From contig NATV01000125.1 in NCBI GenBank assembly GCA_003094535.1, positions 1 through 55,488 on the forward strand: DNA of 55,488 bases. Reading direction: 5' to 3'. Below the pieces are notes generated by a model. That model did not search any database. It was not told the origin of the DNA and saw only the letters and a program-made list of their open reading frames with translations. Origin of the DNA: a gamma proteobacterium symbiont of Ctena orbiculata. Its GTDB lineage: Bacteria; Pseudomonadota; Gammaproteobacteria; Chromatiales; Chromatiaceae. Below, one piece after another: positions 12,101-13,573 of the stretch. Position 1 is the stretch's first letter. The number at the start of each line of letters is the position of its first letter. The position numbers and the translations under genes were made by a program.

Positions 12101-12349
12101 CGTATCCGACTGAGACCGATTCTCATGTCGACTGTCACCACGGTAGCCGGGCTGTCTCCGCTGGTATTCAACCCCGGCGCCGGAACCGAGCTTTACCGGG
12201 GGCTGGGGGCCATCGTACTGTTTGGACTCCTGTTCTCAATGATCGTGACTTTGACCTTTATGCCGGCGCTACTGGCGTTGGTGTTCAGAGTATCGGATAG
12301 ATTATTTTCACAGCAGGAAAAGGAAAAGGGGTCAGTACCCTTTAACTGA
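9164..12349 (+). CDS. RND (HAE1-like) efflux pump permease
   Basis: 1061 residues, the normal length for an AcrB-like trimeric proton antiporter. TM1 lies at about 10-30 and the first porter loop follows. A central block of helices (about 340-540) includes 'GMTLDNNIVVAENIYRH', which holds the acidic relay residues. A second half repeats the pattern, with 'LIGTVVNNPILIVEL'. It acts in the inner membrane with the adaptor encoded immediately upstream. The C-terminus is odd: the last codons (KEKGSVPFN) and the stop lie inside a copy of the short palindromic repeat found several times downstream, so repeat insertion appears to have rewritten the 3' end. The substrate is unknown. Confidence 0.88.
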   Translation: MFRFCIEKPVILTVVILILTLFGLLAIFSVPVQMIPDLDARLIKVTATWPGASPQDVEKEIIIEQEQYLTRIPGLERIISTANTGRAEIELEFPYTVSIDEALLDVNNALSQVDNYPENVRQPSIRSESFSSNSFMYFRLTPLSGDFSEDDVIALHDWAEENIKRPMERVPDVSSVRLWGGAERQIKIHVDPVKLAERNISLLDVRNAIRARNRDISGGDLDSGKRRYLLRTIGRFQSVEELNELVITERDGAFVRLKDLGHAELGFAEVRNYAYASGKPQLAFAVNRQIGTNVIEIKQAMMRKVEELNAGILKEKGLELVLNSDDVVYVTDAVEVVKHNLAIGAILALLVLFLFLRSVSGTLIGAMAIPICAIAAFLGLLIAGRTINVISLSGVAFAIGMTLDNNIVVAENIYRHLSKGTSRLQAALNGITEVWPAVLASTLTTVCVFLPILFIHEEAGQLYSDIAIAIAASILMSMLVAITLVPAASGRFLSIHKESKNSFLDRLGSAVSHGVLSLIHWLVAGFIRPLSVILIVLAGAGAILYYLTPQTEYLPEGEEAKVFTIMFAPPGYNIDTMKGHYQSVEKQFLPQLDADPEQFTKGETDIPAMTFSVSFVSNTRVFSVRGVADRHQTDEFLEIASAKAGELPGLRSFSSKGSIFSGNFGGTRSINIDISGPELQSLFTAGLKVFLKSKQIFDNPRVRPEPSNLTMGQPMLEVQPDWERAAELGIDTQDLGYTIWAYSDGAFVDEFFLDDDQIDMFLYSTRGNIEQPQDLESLMLYSSRGEIVPLNAIARLEESVNTETIRRVDGDRTITLSVIPPRDIPLEAGVETVTEEIILGMKESGELPADIRLEISGASDQLTATREALFGNFIVAILIAYLLMVAVFSHWGYPLLIMTNLPVGISGGIAGLYLVNLAGANLDQIGLNPINQPFDMITMLGFLVLIGTVVNNPILIVELTATNLKKKGMNIVEAVTEAVRIRLRPILMSTVTTVAGLSPLVFNPGAGTELYRGLGAIVLFGLLFSMIVTLTFMPALLALVFRVSDRLFSQQEKEKGSVPFN
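12324..12343. repeat. Palindromic repeat copy overlapping the end of the RND pump gene
   Basis: AAAAGGGGTCAGTACCCTTT, the reverse complement of the motif repeated at 12513-12652. It is an imperfect palindrome and encodes the last residues of the pump, ending 3 nt before the stop codon. The shared motif shows that the repeat family entered the coding sequence. Confidence 0.75.
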
Positions 12350-12443
12350 GTTTATTCACAATCAACCTTCATTAGCAATCTGAACAAGGTAGCTCGAATA
12401 CCCAGAGAACCTTTTGGTAGTGCTCACTTATGTGAACAGATTG

Positions 12444-12687
12444 AAAAGTCACAAAAGTATACAGTAGGTCTGGTCAGAAGAAGTCATCAGAAGGGAAGAA
12501 GAACGGTAAGTGAAAAAGGGTACTGACCCCTTTACCGGAAAAAGGGTACTGACCCCTTTACCAAAAGTCACAAAAGTATACAGTAGGTCTGGTCAGAAGA
12601 AGCCATCAGAAGGGAAGAAGAATAGTGAAAAAGGGTACTGACCCCTTTACCGCTGACCCCTTTACCGCTTTACCGCCTTTACCGCTA
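12444..12687. repeat. Tandem repeat array built from an ~92-bp unit with a GGGTACTGACCCC core
   Basis: A unit running from AAAAGTCACAAAAGTATACA to CCCCTTTACC occurs at 12444-12535 and again at 12563-12651, with only a few substitutions and a 3-nt length difference. Between them lies an extra copy of the core AAAAAGGGTACTGACCCC (12539-12562). After the second unit the array decays into shorter pieces: GACCCCTTTACCGCT (12655-12669), then TTTACCGC and TTTACCGCT (to 12686). Four full cores are present in 12324-12652, one inverted relative to the other three. No gene lies inside. Such cores are often mobilised by REP-associated transposases, but none is encoded here. The array separates the pump gene from the tRNA operon terminator. 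Confidence 0.8.
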
Positions 12688-12696
12688 CGTAGAAAC

Positions 12697-12726
12697 AAAA
12701 AGCCCGAACTGTTAGGTTCGGGTTTT
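12697..12726 (-). terminator. Rho-independent terminator of the tRNA operon
   Basis: On the minus strand CCCGAAC (loop CTAACA) GTTCGGG forms a 7-bp stem followed by CTTTTT. It begins 15 bp after the 3' end of tRNA-Lys, as expected for the end of the four-tRNA transcript. The run of A before the stem means it may also work weakly on the plus strand. Confidence 0.8.
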
Positions 12727-12737
12727 CTATTAAAGTT

Positions 12738-12813
12738 TGGTGGGCCATGTAGGATTCGAACCTACGACCAATGGATTAAGAGTCCACTGCTCTACCAGCT
12801 GAGCTAATGGCCC
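12738..12813 (-). tRNA. tRNA-Lys (anticodon CTT)
   Basis: On the minus strand the sequence starts GGGCCATTAGCTCAGC and ends ...ATGGCCCACCA. The acceptor stem (GGGCCAT/ATGGCCC), D arm, TTCGAAT T-loop and encoded CCA are all present. The anticodon loop is C-T-CTT-A-A, so lysine. It is the last of four tRNAs in the cluster. Confidence 0.93.
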
Positions 12814-12855: not shown

Positions 12856-12932
12856 TGGGGTGGACGATGGGTCTCGAACCCACGACCGCCGGAACCACAA
12901 TCCGGAGCTCTACCAACTGAGCTACGTCCACC
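12856..12932 (-). tRNA. tRNA-His (anticodon GTG)
   Basis: On the minus strand it reads GGTGGACGTAGCTCAGTTGG ... CGTCCACCCCA. The extra 5' G(-1) opposite C73 is encoded, the hallmark of tRNA-His. The anticodon loop is T-T-GTG-G-T and CCA is encoded. It sits between tRNA-Arg and tRNA-Lys. Confidence 0.93.
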
Positions 12933-12980: not shown

Positions 12981-13325
12981 TGGCACGCCCGGCAGGACTC
13001 GAACCTGCTACCCTCGGCTTAGCTTACCAACTACGCCTTTCGGCGCCCCCATCCGGGGTTTGTGGTCTGGACTATCTCTTCACCGTCTCAGGTGTCGCAC
13101 GTATAGTCTCTACGGATCCCCCAGCTACAGAATCGCCCATCCGCTCTTGCGGGATGTCTCAACCTGGGTTTCCTCGGGATTGCCATCAGCACCACCTGTT
13201 AAGGTTTCCCCGATACAGTGCGATCCACTTCATGGGTTGCCTTCCCCATAAAGGCTCCTGGTTGCACTTGGCCTTGGCCAGGTGCGCTCAAAGGCCGATG
13301 CTCTATCCAAATGAGCTACGGGCGC
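12981..13325 (-). tRNA. tRNA-Arg (anticodon TCT), split by a group I intron
   Basis: Two exons on the minus strand: 13325-13291 (GCGCCCGTAGCTC ... ATCGGCCTT) and 13022-12981 (CTAAGCCGAGG ... GGGCGTGCCA). Joined they give a 77-nt tRNA with a complete acceptor stem (GCGCCCG/CGGGCGT, one G-U pair), D arm, anticodon stem TCGGC/GCCGA, T arm and encoded CCA. The loop is C-T-TCT-A-A, the same as the rare-codon tRNA-Arg(UCU) encoded by argU in E. coli. The gene is interrupted between positions 34 and 35 of the anticodon by 268 nt with group I intron core elements. Without splicing this tRNA could not function. Confidence 0.9.
13023..13290 (-). ncRNA. Group I self-splicing intron in tRNA-Arg(UCU)
   Basis: The intron follows an exon ending in U and ends in G, as group I rules require. 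Its core elements are recognisable in order on the minus strand. A Q/P4-like element GGCAATCCCGAGG lies at 13184-13172. An R/P7 element GTAGAGACTATACG lies at 13114-13101. A CACC/GGTG hairpin (P8-like) follows, then the S/P7 partner GAAGAGATAGTCC at 13081-13069; GACTAT and ATAGTC pair. A stable hairpin (GCACcTGGCC/GGCCAaGTGC) stands near the 5' end. There is no homing endonuclease frame. Bacterial tRNA introns in the anticodon loop (tRNA-Leu UAA, tRNA-Ile CAU, tRNA-Arg CCU) are of this small, ORF-less kind. The exact splice points are inferred from tRNA geometry. Confidence 0.85.
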
Positions 13326-13332
13326 AGAAAAC

Positions 13333-13409
13333 TGGTCGGGGTAGAGAGATTCGAACTCCCGACATCCTGCTCCCAAAGCAGGCGCGCTACCAGACTGCGC
13401 TATACCCCG
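13333..13409 (-). tRNA. tRNA-Pro (anticodon TGG)
   Basis: On the minus strand it reads CGGGGTATAGCGCAGTCTGG ... TACCCCGACCA. The acceptor stem CGGGGTA/TACCCCG is intact, the anticodon loop T-T-TGG-G-A gives proline, and CCA is encoded. It is the first tRNA of the cluster, 7 nt upstream of tRNA-Arg, so the operon promoter should lie between 13410 and folD. Confidence 0.92.
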
Positions 13410-13573
13410 AAAATCATCCCAAAAGTATATCCCTACACCCTGGGTGAGCAAAGGGGGGGAATAATACTGGCGAAGCCCCGCTAGGTCAATGGCGACGGGC
13501 ACTGCGCACTGACAGTCGGGTCGGCTTTCTGTATCATCCGATCCCTGGTTTGAATATGACCCCGGATATCCCG

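Follow-up and report, generated by a model that had tools for sequence, protein, structure and literature searches.

The window, by which we mean the whole stretch of DNA that we analyzed (55,488 nucleotides from a gammaproteobacterial symbiont of Ctena orbiculata; contig NATV01000125.1), contains an operon of four tRNA genes in the order Pro-Arg-His-Lys, all on the minus strand. The second gene, for tRNA-Arg(UCU), is split within its anticodon by a 268-nt insert. From upstream to downstream, the features are:

13461..13489, minus strand: promoter-like site upstream of tRNA-Pro, TTGACC-17-TATTAT, 10/12 (consensus match only)
13333..13409, minus strand: tRNA-Pro(UGG), first gene of the operon (ARAGORN)
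13291..13325, minus strand: 5' exon of tRNA-Arg(UCU), with U34 as its last base (ARAGORN and genus comparison)
13023..13290, minus strand: group I intron of 268 nt, U first and G last (13023) (ARAGORN, RF00028, and genus comparison)
12981..13022, minus strand: 3' exon of tRNA-Arg(UCU), from C35 to the CCA (ARAGORN and genus comparison)
12856..12931, minus strand: tRNA-His(GUG) (ARAGORN)
12738..12813, minus strand: tRNA-Lys(CUU), final gene of the operon (ARAGORN)
12703..12722, minus strand: terminator-like hairpin and T tail, 3' of tRNA-Lys (consensus match only)

If introns are disallowed, ARAGORN reports only tRNA-Lys, tRNA-His, and tRNA-Pro in the window. Once introns are allowed, a tRNA-Arg(tct) appears at 12981-13325 on the minus strand, with an intron of 268 nt. 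(Three of the five option sets that we tried give the split Arg(tct); one gives Ser(tga) instead; and one, with the intron fixed, gives tRNA-Pro only.) When joined, the exons have the standard 77-nt fold of a tRNA-Arg(UCU). ARAGORN thus bears out the initial annotation, which had described two tRNA halves that fold correctly once joined and a four-tRNA operon.

That annotation had also placed the insertion after position 34, and an intronless relative agrees with ARAGORN's exons on this point. G044, from another genus of the same family, has an intact tRNA-Arg(UCU) that is identical to the joined exons at 77/77 nt and likewise lies within the order Pro-Arg-His-Lys. This identity supports the junction (U34, then the intron from U to G, then C35).

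The acceptor stem of the tRNA-Arg opens with a G-U pair (13325 with 12985 of the window). The same pair is present in the intronless relatives G044 and G027, so it is not linked to the intron. Also, on the 3' side of the operon, close to where a large transporter-like open reading frame (ORF) ends, GGGTACTGACCCCTTTACC occurs in four copies (12322-12651 of the window; one copy is inverted, with a mismatch), while the mean in shuffled sequences was 0.00.

Group I structure of the insert

The insert is a real group I intron, as the initial annotation had claimed. It matches the Rfam model RF00028 over the model's entire length (1-253), with 29.7 bits and E = 7.6e-6 in a search of a 386-base stretch, and nothing else in the genome matches the model at E ≤ 0.001. 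Because the gathering score is 50 bits, a gathering-level Rfam scan misses the intron. Those introns in tRNA-Arg(UCU) that RF00028 detects in other members of the genus (which we take to be Candidatus Thiodiazotropha) all score below this value as well. Given the subthreshold match, the identification also rests on covariation across 57 aligned introns. These comprise 19 distinct introns from the genus, one from the same family, and 37 from a pattern scan of other genomes (described below); introns of over 360 nt, duplicates, and loci that could not be delimited are excluded. We drew the group I structure on the window's row of the alignment and then counted the pairing. The parts of the intron are:

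13253..13259, minus strand: internal guide sequence AGGAGCC, which pairs with 13291-13296 of the 5' exon (P1) and places a G opposite U34 (drawn structure and covariation)
13229..13252, minus strand: P2 hairpin, 8 pairs, all 8 of them changed on both sides (covariation)
13174..13223, minus strand: 5' strand of P3 (13218-13223), P4 (13209-13213 with 13174-13178), and P5 (13203-13204 with 13183-13184) (covariation)
13120..13166, minus strand: P6 extension, variable within the genus, and the position of the endonuclease gene in relatives that have one (column conservation and ORF position)
13070..13108, minus strand: P7 (13103-13108 with 13070-13075), 3' strand of P3 (13095-13100), and P8 (13091-13094 with 13081-13084) (covariation)
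13034..13058, minus strand: P9 (13055-13058 with 13047-13050) and P9.1 (13042-13045 with 13034-13037) (covariation)

Standard pairs fill 95.6% of the 2,950 alignment cells, as compared to 80.7% in shuffled alignments and 37-46% if the partners are slid. (Shuffling breaks the relatedness of the introns, while sliding the partners preserves it.) Both sides change at 33 of 52 pairs, and 386 cells have changes on both sides, versus 85.8 in the shuffles. On each of the five measures, none of 500 shuffles reached the observed value. The 12 helices, which include the P3-P4-P5-P6-P7-P8 core with its P3/P7 pseudoknot, are each paired in 88-100% of cells, and compensated variation is seen in P2, P3, P4, P5b, P8, P9, and P9.1. 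P7 is almost invariant and gives little information about covariation; furthermore, the 37 pattern-scan rows were fetched via ATAGTCC, so the 3' strand of P7 is fixed there by the pattern.

At the splice sites, the details given in the initial annotation (a P7 of GACTAT/ATAGTC, a U before the intron, and a G at its end) are all accurate. The U at the 5' splice site faces the G of the guide sequence in the window and in 57/57 introns; the exon U was demanded when delimiting the 38 rows from outside the genus, but the guide G was not. Among the 20 copies from the genus, all seven columns of the guide sequence are invariant and the intron always ends with AAG. (In the loci that were fetched by pattern, the terminal G is part of the search pattern.) P1 is imperfect: C32 is opposite an A in the window, and the outermost pair is broken in 13 of the 57 introns. 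In the P1 register that we used, C35 is also opposite an A and a canonical P10 is not apparent; P10 is not known to be universal among group I introns. The minimum free energy fold of the whole gene scores just slightly better than shuffled sequences (z = -2.15, with 1 of 100 shuffles as low) and does not contain the pseudoknotted core.

We also considered the protein-spliced tRNA introns of archaea and eukaryotes, which are short and mostly at 37/38, according to PMC4033280. The length of 268 nt, the location between 34 and 35, and the group I core do not fit that class.

Probable inheritance and splicing in Thiodiazotropha

The split gene is present, at the same site, in 20 of the 22 genomes from the genus (including the window's own genome), with introns of 225-298 nt. 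In the other two (G008 and G012), neither half of tRNA-Arg(UCU) is listed, and an intact tRNA-Arg(UCU) was found in none of the 22 genomes. Across the 20 copies, two long segments of the core are nearly invariant (58/61 and 46/51 columns), as compared to 1/81 columns in the P6 loop and 5/31 in the P1 extension. The gene folD adjoins the operon at all 20 loci, and 10% of its third positions are invariant. Pairwise distances between introns are correlated with those between the folD genes (r = 0.44; 0 of 9,999 permutations gave a value as high). The trees for the intron and for folD agree on the shallow groups but differ in the deep branches. Judging from these comparisons, the intron looks to have been inherited vertically, which fits its presence in the ancestor of the genus.

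The window's genome (182 contigs totalling 4.29 Mb, and 99.99% complete) has 41 tRNAs that are found with RF00005, and the only arginine anticodons among them are ACG, CCG, and CCT. Searching the genome with the joined exons yielded the two halves and, elsewhere, two short matches and tRNAs that are 76-81% identical. Neither approach found a second intact tRNA-Arg(UCU) gene, which would have been a reason to doubt that the split copy is used. AGA is in use (7 of the 2,883 codons in six genes of the window), and with no alternative tRNA-Arg(UCU) gene found, splicing must presumably work well enough for it to be decoded. The tRNA-Arg(CCU) gene is present and intact and can read AGG, so at most the decoding of AGA depends on the split gene.

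Could the tRNA gene instead be a dead copy, interrupted by an insert that has lost the ability to splice? A score below the RF00028 cut-off is what one might point to, but no other tRNA-Arg(UCU) is found in the genome, the exons are identical to the intact tRNA of G044, and the core and the exons are conserved in 20 genomes while the loops vary. We give this explanation almost no credence. Rather, on the evidence of these sequences, the intron is very likely active.

Our proposal for how it works is as follows. A precursor would be transcribed from the Pro-Arg-His-Lys operon. Within it, the guide AGGAGCC would pair with the 5' exon, which would place U34 opposite a G, and a guanosine would be bound in the P3/P7/P8 core. 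Two transesterifications, at U34 and at the terminal G, would then join U34 to C35 within the anticodon. We infer this chemistry from the group I family.

Splicing might also be regulated: if it were tuned by temperature, magnesium, or guanosine, it could gate the translation of genes that are rich in AGA or AGG. Consistent with this, the split gene is the only tRNA-Arg(UCU) that was found, it is kept in 20 of 22 genomes, and these codons are rare: among the 2,883 codons of six genes in the window, which we named by eye, AGA and AGG account for 7 each of the 167 arginine codons. However, AGG can be read by tRNA-Arg(CCU), and the conserved parts of the intron are those that plain splicing needs; its loops, including the variable P6 loop and P1 extension, do not contain a conserved extra domain. 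We consider a regulatory intron to be quite unlikely, and a function beyond self-removal, including the gating of translation by splicing, is not supported.

The same site in other bacteria and in phages

Outside of Thiodiazotropha, introns at this site are patchy. Within the family, our site pattern matched 21 of 194 sampled genomes (12 from the genus and 9 across six other genera), while a reversed control pattern matched 2 of the 194. The nine matches from other genera could all be delimited as introns. Five of these have a full ORF for an endonuclease, three have a broken or deleted ORF (including G056, whose genome is a single contig), and one has none. In a sample spread across the class, the pattern matched 14 of 369 genomes (two are from the genus, and G061 looks like a chance match); these are pattern matches only.

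We also scanned named genomes with a pattern for the 3' strand of P7, the terminal G, CTAA, and the T arm. This matched at least 114 stretches, 80 of which we took as loci. Among the 80 loci listed, at least 67 are tRNA-Arg(UCU) introns after position 34 by a strict rule; the other 13 could not be delimited by that rule, although ARAGORN accepts two of them (L158 and L174). The 67 among the matches listed are from Pseudomonadota (35), Bacteroidota (11), Bacillota (9), Acidobacteriota (5), Omnitrophota (2), Chloroflexota (1), and Thermodesulfobacteriota (1), with three unassigned to a phylum; phyla were taken from the record titles, and four of the 67 are apparently Thiodiazotropha genomes that were already counted. 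So the site is occupied in at least seven phyla, some of them through single metagenome-assembled genomes (MAGs). Many of the loci are from MAGs, in which stray contigs are possible, but those from Bacillota and Thermodesulfobacteriota include named strains.

Among the matches listed, 19 of the 67 introns contain an ORF of about 136 amino acids for an endonuclease and another 7 contain a remnant (one of which is weak). (L151 and L251 apparently come from a single genome, which is counted in both the 67 loci and the nine introns from the family.) The ORF lies within the P6 loop, and its final codons extend into the 3' strand of P6. All three of the ORFs that we scanned belong to Pfam's PDDEXK_5 (E = 1.4e-39, 5.6e-35, and 1.6e-33), and the endonuclease also resembles PDB 2ost (E = 2.6e-5), which we take to be I-Ssp6803I. 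I-Ssp6803I is the endonuclease of an intron in tRNA-fMet. That system is like ours in the type of endonuclease that the relatives of the window's intron encode (2ost, PDDEXK_5), but it involves another tRNA, and the window's intron itself does not encode an endonuclease.

In fact, five endonuclease queries had no match in any of the 20 introns from the genus (at E = 1e-2). PF11645 was not found in the window's genome, although the same search gave matches in G225 and G131, and it was unmatched in 20 of the 21 other genomes from the genus that we searched. Given these results, we do not classify the window's intron as a mobile intron that bears its own endonuclease. The exception within the genus is G003, which has a weak match to PF11645 (22.1 bits; L261, G003:C15:235-513) that lies outside of the intron.

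Endonuclease genes are also found in phages. We identified matches in 31 phage records, all at under 60% identity, but none in plasmids at E = 1e-3. The two best matches are from Synechococcus phage Sf-FR1 (58.5%) and Acinetobacter phage Herod (42.1%), and in both, a free-standing gene lies directly 3' of an intact tRNA-Arg(UCU):

L262, 1851-2426, and L263, 1906-2441: free-standing PDDEXK_5-like gene and tRNA-Arg(UCU) in the two phages

We looked at the surroundings of the gene in five of the 31 records. Of the genes in the other three, two adjoin different tRNAs; around the third, no tRNA is annotated within 1.5 kb. The location of the phage genes directly after tRNA-Arg(UCU) hints that the enzyme may target the anticodon region of this tRNA and that the intron may have captured it.

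An endonuclease that is encoded elsewhere could, in principle, keep the intron homing today. The endonucleases in the introns of relatives, the two phages in which a free-standing relative directly follows tRNA-Arg(UCU), and the match in G003 are compatible with this. However, PF11645 was found neither in the window's genome nor in 20 of the 21 others searched in the genus, and the divergence of the intron tracks that of folD at shallow levels. We think it very improbable that the intron is still mobile.

Instead, we are confident that this is a functional group I intron that is spliced from the operon's precursor and that most likely derives from a mobile form with an endonuclease. To judge from its relatives, the intron most likely originated as a mobile form with a gene for a PD-(D/E)XK homing endonuclease in the P6 loop; Thiodiazotropha would then have lost that gene and passed on the intron with the host. 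A broader proposal, which we consider possible but hold at slightly less than even, is that the window's intron is the endonuclease-less descendant of an undescribed and widespread mobile family. In seven or more phyla, members of this family would home into the tRNA-Arg(UCU) anticodon by means of a PD-(D/E)XK enzyme encoded in P6, and phages with the free-standing enzyme may supply or shuttle it. A tree of 23 endonucleases mostly tracks the phyla (four changes of label, when the minimum possible is three) and shows no clear recent transfer across phyla. Nor can transfer between phyla be judged from a tree of intron cores, in which the branches are long and the forks weak. Removing 5 duplicates from 96 introns left 91 for that tree, of which 48 could be cut automatically and 43 could not.

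The initial annotation had considered introns in tRNA-Arg(UCU) to be all but unheard of in gammaproteobacteria. This does not hold: besides the introns from 35 Pseudomonadota in our scan, PMC4853749 describes introns, putatively of group I, in the tRNA-Arg-TCT genes of Ca. Maribeggiatoa (BOGUAY) and of Ca. Thiomargarita nelsonii Bud S10, in which tRNA-Leu(UAA) is split as well. As with the window's intron, these are in tRNA-Arg(UCU) of gammaproteobacteria, and that paper indicates that the gene was absent from the annotation. In titles and the beginnings of abstracts, our literature search found no other bacterial group I introns in tRNA-Arg(UCU), and it found no literature that covers both Thiodiazotropha and an intron. 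Nor did it find, with thin coverage of subscription literature, any description of introns at 34/35 that spans several phyla and includes a PDDEXK_5 enzyme within P6.

Other known introns are similar by description. PMC7717549 reports that alphaproteobacterial tRNA-Arg(CCU) introns (such as BbgpI) self-splice in vitro and are spliced in vivo; by description, these are also group I introns in an unannotated gene for an arginine tRNA, but the anticodon is CCU rather than UCU. The window's intron is not a member of that group, as its host tRNA is UCU and the genome's CCU gene is intact. PMC4033280 lists bacterial tRNA introns for cyanobacteria and for alpha- and betaproteobacteria. The intron in PMC8155191 is in 23S rRNA and not relevant here.

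The tRNA-Ile(CAU) intron of Azoarcus belongs to subgroup IC3. Like the window's intron, it is a small group I intron in the anticodon region of a tRNA, although the tRNA is different (again, this likeness is by description).

So the window's intron is ordinary in type, but its insertion site is under-described. Its interest lies in the wider family of introns and in the invisibility of the gene to routine annotation: both default tRNA finding and the Rfam cut-off miss it, so annotation can falsely suggest that a tRNA that reads AGA is missing. The wider set forms a series at one tRNA site, along which the endonuclease gene goes from intact through decayed to absent, and is a setting in which to study the homing cycle of bacterial introns. 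It also makes tRNA-Arg(UCU) a testable target for PD-(D/E)XK homing enzymes.

Finally, we noticed group I introns above the RF00028 cut-off in other tRNAs. Another member of the genus (G006; L037, 1419-1727) has one in tRNA-Leu(UAA), with 72.3 bits; that tRNA is intact in the window's genome. Within the class, there are introns in tRNA-Gln(CUG) from three genomes (L032, L033, and L036) and in tRNA-Lys(CUU) (L034, near an intact tRNA-Arg(UCU)). In G089, also of the class, tRNA-Arg(UCU) is split after U36 rather than after U34 as in the window (L109, 983-1306). The insert there is 247 nt long and its core is similar, so this one tRNA has two insertion sites. Both tRNA-Arg(UCU) and tRNA-Leu(UAA) are split in G089, as in Maribeggiatoa and Thiomargarita, and our guess is that G089 belongs to their group.
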